From contig JAJGRE010000002.1 of the NCBI GenBank assembly GCA_021083345.1, positions 744,001 to 808,000 on the forward strand: 64,000 bases of DNA, written 5' to 3'. The notes below the pieces were generated by a model. The model had not been told where the DNA came from. It did no database searches and saw only the letters and a program-made list of their open reading frames with translations. The position numbers and the translations under genes are program-made. This document shows, piece by piece, positions 45,092 to 61,000 of the stretch. Within the stretch, counting starts at the first letter, position 1. The number at the start of each line of letters is the position of its first letter. The DNA is from Calditrichales bacterium MX18-03 (GTDB lineage Bacteria > Bacillota > Clostridia > Lutisporales > Lutisporaceae).

Positions 45092-45457
45092 TCAGAATAC
45101 CATCCTTCTCCAAATATTGTTTCTGGTCATCCAATTGTTGCGTGTTATAAGCAATATACCGGCGGCATAAATGACTGCAGGTCCGAAAACCACTGCTGCG
45201 GCGTCATAGTCCTCGCCGACAGCGTCATTCATCCGGTTGAAATTGAAGTGAGCGTGTTCGCTGCTATTCTCCGCCTTCATGCTCATTATGCTTTGAGCCA
45301 GCATACCATGCAGCTTATGCGTATATACGGCGGCGCTGCGCAGACTCTTTAAGGCTCTTGGCGCGTCCACCTGCTCCTGAGAGCCGGCATACACGGTAAA
45401 AAGCATGAAAAGGAAAGCTGCATACCGTTTTATATTTTTATATTTCATCGTATCCAT
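45092..45457 (-). CDS. Small membrane-associated protein, unknown
   Basis: A 121-residue protein with an N-terminal hydrophobic segment (AAFLFMLFTVYAGSQEQV) that may be a signal peptide and a C-terminal helix (AAAVVFGPAVIYAAGILLI) followed by basic residues. GAGGT lies six bases before the ATG. I do not recognise the family. It is separated from secA by 63 bases and from the DUF5317 gene by a terminator. Could be a real but poorly conserved gene. Confidence 0.5.
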   Translation of the reverse strand: MDTMKYKNIKRYAAFLFMLFTVYAGSQEQVDAPRALKSLRSAAVYTHKLHGMLAQSIMSMKAENSSEHAHFNFNRMNDAVGEDYDAAAVVFGPAVIYAAGILLITRNNWMTRNNIWRRMVF

Positions 45458-45620: not shown

Positions 45621-46178
45621 CTATTGTGTTTTTCTTTTTTTAACCATTATTTCCTGAATATACACAAATACGCCGATTGCCAGGAAAATATCACCGATGC
45701 TGATAACCTTCGGTCTGGGATTAGGCCACCCAAGCATGAATACATCTCCCAGGAAACCAAGCTTGGTCGAGCCGGTCAAAAGTGTGTGGGTGATGGCTTT
45801 ACCGTTCTGGACGGCTTGCAAATCATCAAAGAGCCCGAGCTTTACCAACGCATCCGTTGAAACAGGCATATGACCGCCATTGGCCATTATGACGATAAAG
45901 TTCAAAAGGACTCCGACCAATATGATTCTGAAGGCAATGCTTTTCCAATTGAAAAAAACACCGATAAAAATCAGGATATAGGACAGAAAATGCAAAAGCA
46001 GGATGTAATCAATAAAAAATCGGCTTCCCTTTGCTGCCATATGGACAGTAAAAAATTCCAGTAAAAAGGCACTGACAAAAACATACCATTTATTAATCTC
46101 AGCATCCTTCATATTATTGAAGCTGCCTCCACGTATTTTCCCCGCAACCAAGGACGTTCCGACACTCTCAATCAGCAA
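45621..46178 (-). CDS. DUF5317 family membrane protein
   Basis: A 185-residue protein with about five membrane helices. ANGGHMPVS and, near the end, IGDIFLAIGVFVYIQE are features I associate with DUF5317 proteins, which have no assigned function. Start: TTG at 46178, seven bases after the HD-GYP stop, with an AAGGAG site 13 bases before and CAGGG close by. It is the last gene of the unit 48304-45621. Confidence 0.7.
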   Translation of the reverse strand: MLIESVGTSLVAGKIRGGSFNNMKDAEINKWYVFVSAFLLEFFTVHMAAKGSRFFIDYILLLHFLSYILIFIGVFFNWKSIAFRIILVGVLLNFIVIMANGGHMPVSTDALVKLGLFDDLQAVQNGKAITHTLLTGSTKLGFLGDVFMLGWPNPRPKVISIGDIFLAIGVFVYIQEIMVKKRKTQ

Positions 46179-46185
46179 CCCTGAT

Positions 46186-47436
46186 TCAACTCCTTGTTTC
46201 CTCTATCATTTTGATGAAGGCCTCTGCTACTTTAGAATCAAACTGTTTTCCTTTTTCCTGCTCAATAATGTTCAAGGCTTCCTGCATGGTCATGGCACCG
46301 CGGTAAGGCCGCTCGGAAGTCAGCGCATCATACACGTCGGCTATACTCAGTATATAGGCCTCTTGGTTAATTTCTTGTCCTTTTTTTCCTTCCGGATAAC
46401 CTGTCCCATCACAGCGCTCATGGTGCCCATATATTATGTCGGAAGCATCCTTGAGAAAATCGACCTTGTTTATGATCTTCATTCCGATGACCGGATGCTG
46501 CTTGATTTTTTCGAATTCTTCCGGTGTCAGCTTGCCCGGCTTATTCAATATGGTTTCTTCTATTCCTATTTTTCCTACATCGTGCAGGATAGCCGCCATT
46601 TTCAGATCATCGATCCTCTTGGGTTTAAGGCCCATCCTTTTTGCCAGATCACAGGCATATTCGCTGACCCGCATGGAATGACCCTGAGTGTAGGTATCTT
46701 TTGCTTCTATTGCCTGGGATAAGGACTCAACCGTCTCAATATAGATACGGCGCATGTCTACATATAGCTTATATGAATACCGCGCCAACAGAAGTGGGCC
46801 TAGGAATAAAAATATGCCTAAAATGCCATATTGTACGTATGCAAGCGACATAAGAATGCCTAAAGGGGCTAAGAATATGCAATCCTTTAACGCCCAACTG
46901 ATATCACTTAACCACGTACTGGCAAAAGATTCGTTTGTAAGGATTGCTATATAACCGGATATAATCGTCTCATTAATAATGACATAGACGAAAATACTTG
47001 CCATTAGTGGAATGAATAAGGTACTAAGATTAATTGTTCCTGGTACTCCGCCCAAGTATTGATAGCATAACCCCGCCATACCTGTCGATAGAAGAATATT
47101 GGCTCCATTAATCAATGTTTTATATATTGGGTAATTAAAGACATGGACATAGCTGCCTTTGTGTTTCACAATTCGCAACATGATTCCTATACTGGTCACC
47201 CATGCAGCCTCAGGCATGCCTAATACAAGAATCGCTGCAAGGTTAACAGCTAACCCTACCGACATTGCACTCTCTCTGGATGTCACAATTAAAAGAGATT
47301 CTGCAATTATAGATAAAAGTATAAAGACAATGACACCCTTAATATCTATTACAGCATCTATCATTATTGTGCTAAGCAAATGCAGGGTCCCAAGTAGTAT
47401 AACGAATGTTATAAAGAGCTTTAGCTTTTTTGTCAT
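46186..47436 (-). CDS. Membrane-anchored HD-GYP protein (putative c-di-GMP phosphodiesterase)
   Basis: A 416-residue protein. About seven hydrophobic helices fill the first ~210 residues. The C-terminal HD-GYP domain has the HD pair in AAILHDVGKIG, the second metal motif HHERCDGTGYPEG with intact GYP, and SIADVYDALTSERPYR. HD-GYP enzymes break c-di-GMP to pGpG or GMP. The ATG at 47436 is preferred over a GTG at 47445 because AAAGGTG then spaces correctly. It lies between a tiny hydrophobic peptide gene and DUF5317. Confidence 0.88.
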   Translation of the reverse strand: MTKKLKLFITFVILLGTLHLLSTIMIDAVIDIKGVIVFILLSIIAESLLIVTSRESAMSVGLAVNLAAILVLGMPEAAWVTSIGIMLRIVKHKGSYVHVFNYPIYKTLINGANILLSTGMAGLCYQYLGGVPGTINLSTLFIPLMASIFVYVIINETIISGYIAILTNESFASTWLSDISWALKDCIFLAPLGILMSLAYVQYGILGIFLFLGPLLLARYSYKLYVDMRRIYIETVESLSQAIEAKDTYTQGHSMRVSEYACDLAKRMGLKPKRIDDLKMAAILHDVGKIGIEETILNKPGKLTPEEFEKIKQHPVIGMKIINKVDFLKDASDIIYGHHERCDGTGYPEGKKGQEINQEAYILSIADVYDALTSERPYRGAMTMQEALNIIEQEKGKQFDSKVAEAFIKMIEETRS

Positions 47437-47459
47437 CTTCTTCACCTTTTTTTAAAAAC

Positions 47460-47668
47460 TTGACCGGCAAACATCATTTAAAACTTAAACCGGAATTGAC
47501 TTACCAGACTGAACGACTTGCACCTGCTGCCAATACTAATGACATAATGGTAGTCAGTATCGCTATTATTCTGCCCATGGTTTGCCTCCTTGTGATCAAG
47601 GCTCTGTTCCTCCGCTAACGGAACAGGCAAACACTCCGCTAAGATGTTTGAAAAGATTTGCCGGTCAA
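47460..47668. repeat. Long-range inverted repeat enclosing the micropeptide gene
   Basis: TTGACCGGCAAA (47460-47471) and TTTGCCGGTCAA (47657-47668) are perfect inverted copies 185 bases apart. CAAACATC (47468-47475) and GATGTTTG (47643-47650) are also complementary, so the arms could pair over 16 bases with a bulge. A second hairpin CTGTTCC/GGAACAG lies within, just before the micropeptide ribosome binding site. Confidence 0.7.
47501..47578 (-). CDS. 25-residue hydrophobic micropeptide
   Basis: A 25-codon frame with ATG at 47578 seven bases after a perfect AAGGAGG. The product begins MGRIIAILTTIMSLVLAAG, a single membrane-length hydrophobic helix, and ends SRSVW with one Arg. It has no Cys, so it does not look like a thiolactone AgrD precursor, though size and location are compatible with a small signalling or regulatory membrane peptide. 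It lies between the 210-residue protein and HD-GYP genes in the same direction, inside an inverted repeat. No homologue is known to me. Confidence 0.55.
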   Translation of the reverse strand: MGRIIAILTTIMSLVLAAGASRSVW

Positions 47669-47671
47669 AAA

Positions 47672-48304
47672 TTAACTCAACATATTCACTTTTCGGTTAA
47701 CCGCTGAAAGCACTGCTTTAACGGCTGATTCGTTTTCATCCTGGCTGATAATACTGCTGCCCGAAAGCGACTCCTCAGCATTCTCATAGGAAAATCCTAT
47801 GACCGTGATAAAAACCTCCTTGTCGGATATCCTGCAAAGTTCCAAGCCTTCAAGATAGAACATGCCTTTTATACCAAGATAATTCTCCAAAGCATTCAGA
47901 GTAGCTTCTGCTATAGCCTTCCCCCTGTTCGACTTGGATTTAACCTTGATGCTTGTCCCCTCAAACACTTTCTCTTCATATACCAAGGAAACAGTAGCCT
48001 CAATATAGTTCTCAACGTTTTTCACGATGATGCCGTCAATTTTGACCCGAGCTTCCTTATAATCCGCTTCATCTATTTGTGCAATGCTGATCTTTTTGTA
48101 ATCGACATTAATATTAAACTTGGCATTGACTGCAGATTGGATATCCCGTACCAGCTGTTTGATGTTGCGGCCGACTGCAGCCAGTACATGTATTTCCTCA
48201 ATATTATCGCTATTGTCGCATACAACACTGCAGTTTTTAATATCCGGCATTTTGCAGATCAACTGCTCCATCTCGCCCTTCAAGCTGCCTTTAGTGATTG
48301 ACAA
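47672..48304 (-). CDS. Unrecognised 210-residue protein upstream of HD-GYP
   Basis: A soluble mixed alpha/beta protein. Start: TTG at 48304 with AAGGAGGAG about eight bases upstream. Two halves look alike in composition; the second has KVKSKSNRGKAIAEATLNALE and ENYLGIKGMFYLEGLELCRI. The first half contains CSVVCDNSDNIEEIHVLAAV. No membrane segment or catalytic motif is evident. It lies immediately 5' of the micropeptide and HD-GYP genes and may share their transcript. Confidence 0.6.
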   Translation of the reverse strand: MSITKGSLKGEMEQLICKMPDIKNCSVVCDNSDNIEEIHVLAAVGRNIKQLVRDIQSAVNAKFNINVDYKKISIAQIDEADYKEARVKIDGIIVKNVENYIEATVSLVYEEKVFEGTSIKVKSKSNRGKAIAEATLNALENYLGIKGMFYLEGLELCRISDKEVFITVIGFSYENAEESLSGSSIISQDENESAVKAVLSAVNRKVNMLS

Positions 48305-48399: not shown

Positions 48400-48433
48400 A
48401 TAGTAAAATAGTACCGCGGCACTATTTTACTAT
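48400..48433. repeat. Perfect 13-bp hairpin upstream of the 210-residue protein gene
   Basis: ATAGTAAAATAGT and ACTATTTTACTAT (48400-48412, 48421-48433) enclose an 8-base loop containing CCGCGG. It lies 96 bases upstream of the TTG start in the same interval as the hpf terminator; role unknown. Confidence 0.6.
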
Positions 48434-49860: not shown

Positions 49861-49984
49861 GTAAAAATCCCTCTCTTTTCTTAGGTCGGCGTTGGGCATA
49901 AAGAACTGCTCTGGGATTTTTACTGCCAGGATAAACGTTCTTGCACCACGCACTCACACCTTAATTTTGATGGCTATTATACTA

Positions 49985-50193
49985 GCTGACCTGGTCTTTT
50001 CCCCCACACCCGCCGTCTGGCGCTTTTGCTAATAGCGTTCTGCCCCTCACTACTCACGCTCTCAGAATGATCTGGACGGACTTACATCTAAACCGCACCA
50101 TGCTCACAGGAGCATTTCTCCTGCTTACGTGGATCGTTTTGCCTGCGACTGGCTTCGATTTTCAACCACAGACCTAGATAACATACCACAGGT
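49985..50193 (-). ncRNA. Structured RNA candidate (raiA-like location), ~205 nt
   Basis: A GC-richer block in AT-rich surroundings, directly downstream of a good promoter. Minus-strand pairings seen: GGTCT at the 5' end with AGACC at the 3' end; CAGGAG-AAATG-CTCCTG; CAGA-TCAT-TCTG; CCGTC with GACGG; CGCT-ATTAGCAAA-AGCG. It contains no ORF. It could be a free small RNA or a long leader of the zinc-ribbon gene. The raiA RNA motif is found near hpf/raiA in Firmicutes, which makes it the first hypothesis; I cannot confirm the consensus. Confidence 0.5.
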
Positions 50194-59182: not shown

Positions 59183-59641
59183 TTATTCCTTCGTTACCGT
59201 TGCTTCTTCAACTTCACTTATGATCTTGTGCCTGATGCTGTACCGGGTATTGCTCAGCACGCCTTGTACACCCCTCCGGTTCTTGAAATTAACAAGGATA
59301 GGGGCTTTGAGGTTGGCCGTCAGCTCTGTTAACGCTTCTGGGATAGTAAGGATGGTATATATGTAAACATCGGTGGGATCCTCAATACCCAGCTCTTGCA
59401 CCAGCTCGTCATTAATATCGATATCATAGCTGCCCACCAGCGCGGCGGGTGGTGTTACAACAAAGCAGACCGACTCTTCCTCTGCCGACTGCAGGTAATG
59501 GAGGTCCGGCTCATCTGCATCCGATATAAGCGCAAACAGGTGCAGGTTCTCAAAACCGGGAATACCGTTTTCAAAACGGATCATACTGCTGTCCGGCAAG
59601 TCTGCTTCTCCGAAAAATTTAGTTTTGATCTTCAATAGCAT
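59183..59641 (-). CDS. fliW: Flagellar assembly factor FliW (first of two)
   Basis: A 152-residue FliW, which binds CsrA or flagellin. It starts MLLKIKTKFFGEADLPDSSM, has FENGIPGFENLHLFALISDA, CFVVTPPAALVGSYDIDI and the closing RYSIRHKIISE. A TATAAT-like -10 (59692-59687) upstream and AAGGAGTGAG at its start suggest its own promoter. It lies directly upstream of fliC, unlike the fliW2-csrA pair. Confidence 0.92.
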   Translation of the reverse strand: MLLKIKTKFFGEADLPDSSMIRFENGIPGFENLHLFALISDADEPDLHYLQSAEEESVCFVVTPPAALVGSYDIDINDELVQELGIEDPTDVYIYTILTIPEALTELTANLKAPILVNFKNRRGVQGVLSNTRYSIRHKIISEVEEATVTKE

Positions 59642-59741
59642 CTCACTCCTTCTGTGAAGTATAGCACATGATAAAACTCTAAAACCATTATACACGATAT
59701 TTTCGAAATTTTCACTATTTTGTCGAAAGAATGATAAAGCA

Positions 59742-59768
59742 AAAGCTATAGTTGAATTCTATAGCTTT
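59742..59768 (-). terminator. Terminator after csrA
   Basis: AAAGCTATAG-TTGAATT-CTATAGCTTT, overlapping the csrA stop and followed on the minus strand by T residues. It separates csrA from the downstream fliW. Confidence 0.75.
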
Positions 59769-59994
59769 ATTTCTTAATCATTTCCGTCAGCTTGGATATA
59801 TCAATCCCGGTAGAGCTTGCGGATTTGATATTTTCATCCTCTACTTGCTTAATTAATTCTTTTCGGAATATTTTCATGCTTTTGGGGGCTTGAATGCCTA
59901 TCTTTACCCTGTCTTCGCTGATTTCCGTGATAATGATCTCGATGTCGTCACCTATCAGAATTGCCTCGTCTTTTTTTCGCGTCAGTACTAGCAA
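59767..59994 (-). CDS. csrA: Carbon storage regulator CsrA
   Basis: A 75-residue RNA-binding protein starting MLVLTRKKDEAILIGDDIEI, with VKIGIQAPKSMKIFRKEL, the conserved RNA-contact region. It represses translation by binding GGA in leaders, here probably that of fliC. The TTG start at 59994 overlaps the fliW2 stop by seven bases, so translation is coupled. The C-terminal tail is longer than in E. coli CsrA, as in other Firmicutes. Confidence 0.94.
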   Translation of the reverse strand: MLVLTRKKDEAILIGDDIEIIITEISEDRVKIGIQAPKSMKIFRKELIKQVEDENIKSASSTGIDISKLTEMIKK

Positions 59995-60428
59995 GAGGCA
60001 TCCGCCTCCTTTACGATTTTATGCCGGATGTCATACCTGTCATCCCCCAGGATAACCTGCATGGCTTCTTGATTATGAATATTGATGACAACAGGTGCCT
60101 TAAGGTTCGCTGTCATATCCCGGATATTTTCAGGAATGGTTAATATGGCATAGAGAAGTACATCGCTCTCGTTTTCTATACCCAGCTTTTTTACGGCATC
60201 TTCACTGATATCGATGCTGTAATCTCCAACCAATGCAGAAGGCGGAACCACAACAAAGCAGACGCCGGCATCCTCCACAGACTGCATATAATTGAAAACC
60301 GGGGCTTCCTCCTGATGAATCATTGCAAAGCGGTGCAGGGTCGTAAATCCCGGTAAACCGTCCTCGAAATTTATTATTTCCTTCTCATCCATTTCTATTT
60401 CTCCGAAAAACTTGGTTTTTACAAGCAT
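59988..60428 (-). CDS. fliW: Flagellar assembly factor FliW (second of two)
   Basis: A 146-residue FliW starting MLVKTKFFGEIEMDEKEIIN with FEDGLPGFTTLHRFAMI, CFVVVPPSALVGDYSIDI and RYDIRHKIVKE. It shares the same motifs as the first copy but is clearly divergent. The ATG at 60428 is chosen as family-typical, with ATG 60434 as alternative (AGGAGAGG close by). It precedes and overlaps csrA, the usual fliW-csrA arrangement. Confidence 0.92.
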   Translation of the reverse strand: MLVKTKFFGEIEMDEKEIINFEDGLPGFTTLHRFAMIHQEEAPVFNYMQSVEDAGVCFVVVPPSALVGDYSIDISEDAVKKLGIENESDVLLYAILTIPENIRDMTANLKAPVVINIHNQEAMQVILGDDRYDIRHKIVKEADASC

Positions 60429-60442
60429 TTCCATACCTCTCC

Positions 60443-61000
60443 TCATACTTTTTTGTCAACTGAATTGCCAATGTATTCAATATCAAGCTGAGGCCTCTGC
60501 CTTAGCGAGATCTTCACTTCCCCCGGTTCTGCTTCAATGACCGGCTTGTTGGGTTTTGACAGAACCTCTACAAGACCTTCCTCCACACGGATATCCACGT
60601 TTCCCCCGACAAAATCCAGCTTGGGTCTGCTGGCAGGCATTATAGCTGCCTCATAGACTGCTTGTGTGGAAGTATTCTGTAAGGCAGCATCTGCTATTGC
60701 CTCGCTTCCCCCGGATATATCCGCCAAGAGGTTTCCTTCTTGCGTTATCCGATCTATAGCTTGCATCGCAGCCTGTTTTCCCAGTTCTGCCGCCTCTCTG
60801 CTGAAAGTTGTGTTATCCTTCAATCCTGACTCGTTGAAGCATTCTCTTTGATCAATCCGTACCTGTATCTGTTCGGATTGTATCTCTACCTTGCTCTGCT
60901 TCTGCTTCAGCTCAAAATCCACTTTAGGCTGCTTGATTGAAAGCCTGGCTGGAATTGTCTCGATCCCAATCAAGGCATCCGTCCTATTGATCCGCAGCAT
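60443..61000 (-). CDS. DUF6470 family protein
   Basis: A 185-residue protein starting MLRINRTDALIGIETIPARL. Repeated short segments (SIKQPKVDFELKQKQSKVEI; EGLVEVLSKPNKPVIEAEPG) are the DUF6470 pattern, a protein found between flgL and fliW in Firmicutes flagellar clusters. The ATG at 61000 is supported by AGGGTGA. Function unknown, presumably linked to flagellar assembly. Confidence 0.82.
   Translation of the reverse strand: MLRINRTDALIGIETIPARLSIKQPKVDFELKQKQSKVEIQSEQIQVRIDQRECFNESGLKDNTTFSREAAELGKQAAMQAIDRITQEGNLLADISGGSEAIADAALQNTSTQAVYEAAIMPASRPKLDFVGGNVDIRVEEGLVEVLSKPNKPVIEAEPGEVKISLRQRPQLDIEYIGNSVDKKV

Follow-up and report, generated by a model that had tools for sequence, protein, structure and literature searches.

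Gene order at the locus

The window, that is, the whole stretch of 64,000 nucleotides that was analysed, carries on its minus strand a gene series reading, in order, hpf, a gene for a protein of 210 residues (P210), an open reading frame (ORF) of 25 codons, a gene for a membrane HD-GYP protein, a DUF5317 gene, a gene for a small protein, secA and prfB, the last two being recognised by eye. The original prediction had missed that hpf and secA flank the P210-peptide-HD-GYP-DUF5317 unit. P210 (47672..48304, minus strand; 210 residues) consists of an alpha-beta N-terminal domain and a C-terminal domain like the regulatory domain of LeuA. The HD-GYP gene (46186..47436, minus strand) combines a membrane domain with an HD-GYP domain (Pfam HD_5, 1e-42); the former matches MASE9 at 4.4e-5, with a score of 23.9 bits against a gathering cut-off of 24.3, and is called MASE9-like only. 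Its ORF had been listed as 46186-47445, with relatives indicating the ATG at 47436 as the start. As a rule, the gene that comes next encodes the DUF5317 membrane protein (45621..46178, minus strand; PF17248, 3.5e-41, and gene order). The interval between DUF5317 and secA holds a membrane-type ORF of 121 residues (45092-45457, minus strand) that matches no family above threshold.

Since a terminator-like hairpin follows hpf (48531-48512), the peptide gene and the RNA element around it probably lie inside an operon that begins with P210, and not in a 5' leader. The gap between hpf and P210 contains a second perfect inverted repeat (48400-48433; ATAGTAAAATAGT-accgcggc-ACTATTTTACTAT), which could be an operator or an RNA hairpin ahead of P210. 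Upstream of a gene for a treble-clef zinc-finger protein and of hpf lies a raiA RNA (49976-50182, minus strand; Rfam RF03072, 175.9 bits). PMC11706538 reports this RNA from Bacillota and another phylum group, a distribution that may be similar to that of the P210/peptide/HD-GYP module.

The 25-codon peptide gene

The ATG followed by 25 codons and preceded by a perfect AAGGAGG, which the original prediction had placed in the gap between P210 and HD-GYP, was confirmed at 47501..47578 of the minus strand (MGRIIAILTTIMSLVLAAGASRSVW). Alignment of the family gives the consensus MKRIxxxLxSLxALVLAGGAxxxW, that is, a K/R start, about 17 hydrophobic residues, a GGA motif and an aromatic tail. The length is mostly 24-26 residues (total range 24-34), some families having an extra helical turn, and the tail varies from 4 to 14 residues. 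Hydrophobicity and alignment show a single short hydrophobic segment, presumably a helix, and the basic start followed by a conserved hydrophobic stretch suggests that the peptide is inserted in the membrane. No Pfam or NCBIfam family matches it. An AgrD autoinducer was considered and set aside, the conserved cysteine and the charged C-terminal part both being absent.

Codon changes free of coding selection, which would have counted against a peptide gene, were not what the alignments contained: the ORF has a pN/pS of 0.40 in the window's family, which indicates purifying selection. The Coriobacteriia peptides are constrained in the helix (pN/pS 0.24) and drift in the four-residue tail (0.99), while in Bacillota the tail retains its aromatic pattern. 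Judged from these substitution patterns, the 25-residue ORF is a real, previously unannotated gene under selection.

The arrangement KR-hydrophobic-A/G-G-A resembles a signal peptidase site and, together with a conserved helix and a fast-diverging tail that evolves at the neutral rate in Coriobacteriia, would suit a signal-peptide-like precursor releasing a tail of 4-5 residues (e.g., NQTWF) to be sensed by the HD-GYP membrane domain. We consider such a precursor unlikely, given that conservation of the GG before A far exceeds what is usual for signal peptides, that the aromatic tail pattern is kept in Bacillota, and that the peptide gene has no exporter or processing gene linked to it.

Distribution of the module

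The HD-GYP protein was searched for in 60 relatives and in the window's own genome, and its neighbours were then traced by tblastn. The order hpf-P210-gap-HD-GYP-DUF5317-secA is kept throughout the window's family and recurs, somewhat varied, in further families of the class, and the gap ORF of the relatives has 25 codons (28 in one locus, L022) and its own Shine-Dalgarno sequence. The four-gene order P210-peptide-HD-GYP-DUF5317, for which the original prediction had proposed a search, thus exists in relatives. The peptide was present in 30/30 loci of a class sample and in 32/32 of a second batch, two of the latter ending at a contig edge after the ORF start.

When 84,980 species genomes were scanned with the P210 alignment, 555 relatives were obtained, and the best 80 of the 555 were kept. 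These 80 loci come from Clostridia and other Bacillota, from Coriobacteriia and other Actinobacteria-labelled records, and from one Armatimonadota-labelled record. The conserved peptide frame that had been called for is found after P210 in 72 of them, usually at +85 to +180 nt and with 24-34 codons. Seven of the 80 end at a contig edge inside or before the peptide, the AGCG element of the RNA being already visible in six of these seven, and the one true exception (L092) is without both peptide and HD-GYP. Among 293 genomes of the class, P210 occurs in 38; all 33 peptide matches (E<1e-3) and 34 of the 35 RNA matches fall in these 38, one copy each. Certain of the later samples reuse genomes of the earlier ones, which makes the counts overlap.

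The element is single copy and was found at the P210/HD-GYP locus alone. A mobile repeat or MITE is ruled out by this one copy per genome, always at the same locus. On the strength of these alignments, the P210-RNA/peptide-HD-GYP module is conserved across two phyla, Bacillota and Actinomycetota.

A structured RNA around the peptide gene

The 12-bp perfect inverted repeat that had been described around the peptide ORF was recovered as an outer stem, P1, supported by both the repeat and covariation. Its RNA 5' arm (TTGACCGGCAAA, 47657..47668, minus strand, with a few more pairs beyond) and 3' arm (TTTGCCGGTCAA, 47460..47471, minus strand) are 12 nt long, 100% complementary and 185 nt apart, and they enclose the whole ORF. 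The original prediction had missed a second conserved stem, P2, in which the Shine-Dalgarno sequence is paired, as well as a P3 hairpin and a repeated AGCGRA motif. All of these are on the minus strand. A first AGCGGAG motif lies between P1 and P2 (47634..47640), AGCG.AG being invariant in alignments A4/A5. The P2 5' arm (GTTTGCCT, 47625..47632), whose pairing and covariation hold across loci, is the partner of the region that contains the AAGGAGG and the P2 3' arm (AGGCAAAC, 47580..47591), where occlusion of the Shine-Dalgarno sequence is predicted. P3, indicated by covariation and folding, is the hairpin CTGTTCC-GTTAGCGGA-GGAACAG (47604..47626) with a second AGCGGA in its loop.

In the window, the predicted RNA fold is 3.3 sd better than dinucleotide shuffles. 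AGCGDA motifs number 2.4 per element on average (0.12 in shuffles) and are unpaired to an only slightly greater degree than the sequence around them (0.48 vs 0.40). Tandem AGCGRA-like units were observed in three loci (L103, L078 and L077, from Desulfosporosinus, Symbiobacterium and the Armatimonadota-labelled record), as expected for a repeated protein-binding site. The GGA within AGCGGA led to CsrA binding being considered, and a csrA-like gene is indeed present at 59767-59994; this candidate was dropped, since AGCGAA is frequent too. The csrA-like gene lies between two fliW-like genes (59183-59695 and 59988-60446, minus strand), all identified by eye, and two FliW paralogues around one CsrA look unusual (59183-60446).

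A search of 4227 Rfam families at permissive thresholds, c-di-GMP classes included, gave no match to the element. The window's sole Rfam match is raiA, outside the element, and seven relatives gave two matches below the gathering threshold, also outside it.

Covariation was assessed in 77 loci by comparing the pairing of each locus with pairings swapped between loci. Self-pairing reached 33.3 against 20.0 for P1 (z = 23.9) and 19.0 against 13.5 for P2 (z = 13.4), these controls not being probabilities because the sequences are related. The P1 arms are wholly different among clades (TTGACCGGCA/TGCCGGTCAA, TTGGCCGACA/TGTCGGCCAA, AAAGCCAAAACATC/GATGTTTTGGCTTT and TGGGCCAACGCCGTG/CGCGGCGTTGGCCCA), and those of P2 differ as well (GTTTGCC/GGCAAAC, GATATAGCC/GGCTATATC and GAGAAGACC/GGTCTTCTC). 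An alignment of 15 sequences from the window's (Lutispora) family, made without reference to structure, has 97.9% of cells paired and two-sided changes in 8 of 22 pairs, pairing dropping to 25-47% when one arm is slid. The two-sided changes of this family fall in P1 and P3, P2 varying solely between clades. P1 of Coriobacteriia is 98.7% paired, with four two-sided pairs, and a 71-sequence model alignment, itself fitted to the structure, has 156 two-sided cells against 34 when shuffled. The compensatory changes in the repeat arms that the original prediction had proposed to look for are therefore present in P1, clade by clade; P2 was not demonstrated in Caldicoprobacter, Symbiobacterium-like and Thermincola-like loci.

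Predicted accessibility of the Shine-Dalgarno sequence is 0.19, compared with 0.36 when the upstream sequence is shuffled, and is lower in 70 of the 77 loci. The element thus has a covarying fold in which the Shine-Dalgarno sequence is paired, the mark of a structured leader gating translation. Taken at the level of sequence, it is nearly certain that a conserved peptide gene and a conserved RNA coincide at this locus, and it is likely that P2 gates translation of the peptide by way of the Shine-Dalgarno sequence. In Coriobacteriia (e.g., L086:4685-4770), inspection by eye showed that the strand pairing with the Shine-Dalgarno sequence, GAGAAGACC, is also able to pair with the P3 5' arm TTCTTCC, so that two mutually exclusive, switch-like folds are possible there.

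Two other roles for the fold have to be weighed. P1 and P2 could act as long-range transcription attenuators, and a T run does follow P1 in 7 of the 77 loci; the other 70, the window included, have none, for which reason P1 was rejected as a terminator and attenuation is regarded as very improbable. The other role is that of a leader peptide, in which translation or stalling would alter the RNA fold and control HD-GYP in cis, the peptide being jobless after its synthesis. The ORF is always directly upstream of HD-GYP and sits in an elaborate RNA fold, and, with a median of 13 nt between its stop codon and the P1 3' arm, a ribosome that has reached the stop would in many cases be able to disturb P1. 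Nevertheless, a chain of 24-34 codons would roughly fill the ribosome tunnel, which makes the K/R start and the conserved helix ill-suited to stall. Conservation is lowest in the last residues, those located at the peptidyl-transferase centre (Coriobacteriia tail 0.99, helix 0.24), and their neutral drift disfavours a ribosome-stalling C-terminus. Tail length (4 to 14 residues) and stop-to-P1 distance (2 to 79 nt) are also variable, and a leader peptide seems on balance rather unlikely. P1 leaves the HD-GYP ribosome site uncovered, which does not support the earlier idea that the large loop might control HD-GYP translation. Gating of the peptide itself is the preferred reading.

Two natural exceptions

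Two genomes depart from the common arrangement. G009 has no detectable P210 and retains the peptide, P1 (ATCGGCCGGTCA/ACTGGCCGAT, by inspection) and HD-GYP; it has lost P2 and the AGCG motifs, which leaves the Shine-Dalgarno sequence GAGGAGGTGG free. The assembly has a completeness of 80%, but hpf, the gap and HD-GYP share one contig, so that P210 is truly absent from the locus. In G315, secA comes after P210; the sequence next to them lacks HD-GYP, and a peptide was found nowhere in the genome. With one event each, the two cases are only suggestive that the peptide goes with HD-GYP. The joint loss of P210 and P2/AGCGRA in G009, again a single event, suggests that the RNA gate may go with P210. 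The link between peptide and HD-GYP drawn in the original prediction gains support from co-location and from these exceptions. Because hpf and secA are conserved neighbours too, co-location alone is weak evidence of a physical partnership.

The exceptions also bear on a type I toxin-like mRNA, in which pairing of the 5' and 3' ends, together with burial of the Shine-Dalgarno sequence, would silence a membrane-damaging peptide. The anatomy is that of AapA1-type mRNAs, namely a short hydrophobic peptide, a long-range closing stem and an occluded Shine-Dalgarno sequence. A toxin is nonetheless improbable for an element that is single copy per genome and keeps to the same core operon position in both phyla, and whose peptide is under strong purifying selection and vanishes together with HD-GYP. 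A scan for consensus promoters gave no more antisense candidates than shuffles did.

P210 and the HD-GYP protein

The AlphaFold2 model of P210 (40 sequences) has a pLDDT of 89. Residues 85-209 superpose on the regulatory domain of citramalate synthase (3f6h; Z 9.9, rmsd 3.3, 117 residues), and PF08502 (LeuA_dimer) matches 9 of 40 family members, at best with 6.5e-6, the window's P210 itself having no Pfam match. Weak matches to the P210 profile come from ORFs of about 510-570 aa, taken to be LeuA-type synthases. Residues 1-78 resemble the MamM C-terminus, the PrgK ring domain and the acetyl-CoA synthetase C-terminus, with no clear winner, and the most conserved stretch of the protein is KQ.VRDIQSA...DHKKISIAQ. 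Foldseek matches of dsRBD type had TM values below 0.3 and were not relied on, the LeuA-type fold being preferred, and a PDB profile search gave nothing usable. The fold of P210 suggests a small-molecule regulatory domain of the LeuA type rather than c-di-GMP sensing.

In the HD-GYP protein, H285 D286 ... H338 H339 D343 G344 G346 Y347 P348 are invariant in 14 sequences. With these metal and GYP motifs intact, and with GGDEF proteins in 18/18 genomes tested, the c-di-GMP signalling of the original prediction is plausible. PADLOC matches were dismissed as generic HD matches.

Proposed mechanism

The interpretation that we favour, at about even chances, is that a conserved small membrane protein has its translation gated by a structured RNA within its own mRNA and acts as a partner of the HD-GYP enzyme. 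P2 would hold peptide translation low until opened. Once made, the peptide would insert in the membrane, join the multi-helix domain of the HD-GYP protein and adjust c-di-GMP breakdown; from the sequence comparisons, this partnership could equally well hold or fail. The signal that opens P2 would be read by P210, which may bind RNA and carry a small-molecule sensor of the LeuA type and which, perhaps with a bound metabolite, would relieve P2 by binding the AGCGRA repeats. That P210 is the RNA reader is less likely than not. In short, the RNA probably decides when the cell makes a tiny partner of the HD-GYP enzyme. The fullest version, an undescribed Bacillota/Coriobacteriia module in which P210 senses a small molecule, binds AGCGRA and releases translation of a micropeptide that is an obligatory subunit or regulator of HD-GYP, is more doubtful still.

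One gene, one RNA fold and one protein family of this module, all conserved in two phyla, appear to be absent from Rfam, Pfam and NCBIfam. The open-access literature searched contained nothing on DUF5317, on MASE9 with HD-GYP or on the element, an absence that is weak evidence of novelty. If the proposed steps are true, a c-di-GMP phosphodiesterase would here have a micropeptide partner under the control of an RNA, an arrangement undescribed in that literature, and the alignments already identify base pairs and residues for mutation.

Relation to known systems

In type I toxin mRNAs of the AapA1 kind, translation is hidden by folding of the mRNA (PMC6733600). The present element shares with AapA1 and Hok the short hydrophobic peptide, the long-distance closure of the mRNA and the structured Shine-Dalgarno sequence. 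It differs in being core, single copy, fixed in operon position and tied to HD-GYP and P210, and no antitoxin RNA is known for it. In its broad kind, the element belongs with the structured RNAs that hide the Shine-Dalgarno sequence, as an undescribed family. Riboswitches and protein-binding leaders of this type, those for c-di-GMP included, likewise have a conserved fold, an upstream arm on the Shine-Dalgarno sequence and conserved motifs, whereas here the element is probably inside an operon and not at its 5' end, the closing stem encloses a whole ORF, and the gated product is a micropeptide.

Concerning the proteins, P210 has in residues 85-209 the fold of the LeuA/citramalate synthase regulatory domain, with weak PF08502 similarity, but a conserved alpha-beta domain takes the place of the synthase domain. 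The enzyme agrees with MASE9/HD-GYP phosphodiesterases in its HD_5 domain with intact catalytic residues and its MASE9-like membrane domain, while for those enzymes a small subunit or RNA partner is undescribed in the literature searched. AcrZ, KdpF and MgrB are small regulatory membrane proteins in which one short helix acts on a larger membrane partner. The peptide would resemble this class as a single short helix from a small gene with a larger membrane partner, and would depart from it in that the partner would be a c-di-GMP phosphodiesterase and its translation would be under a conserved RNA.
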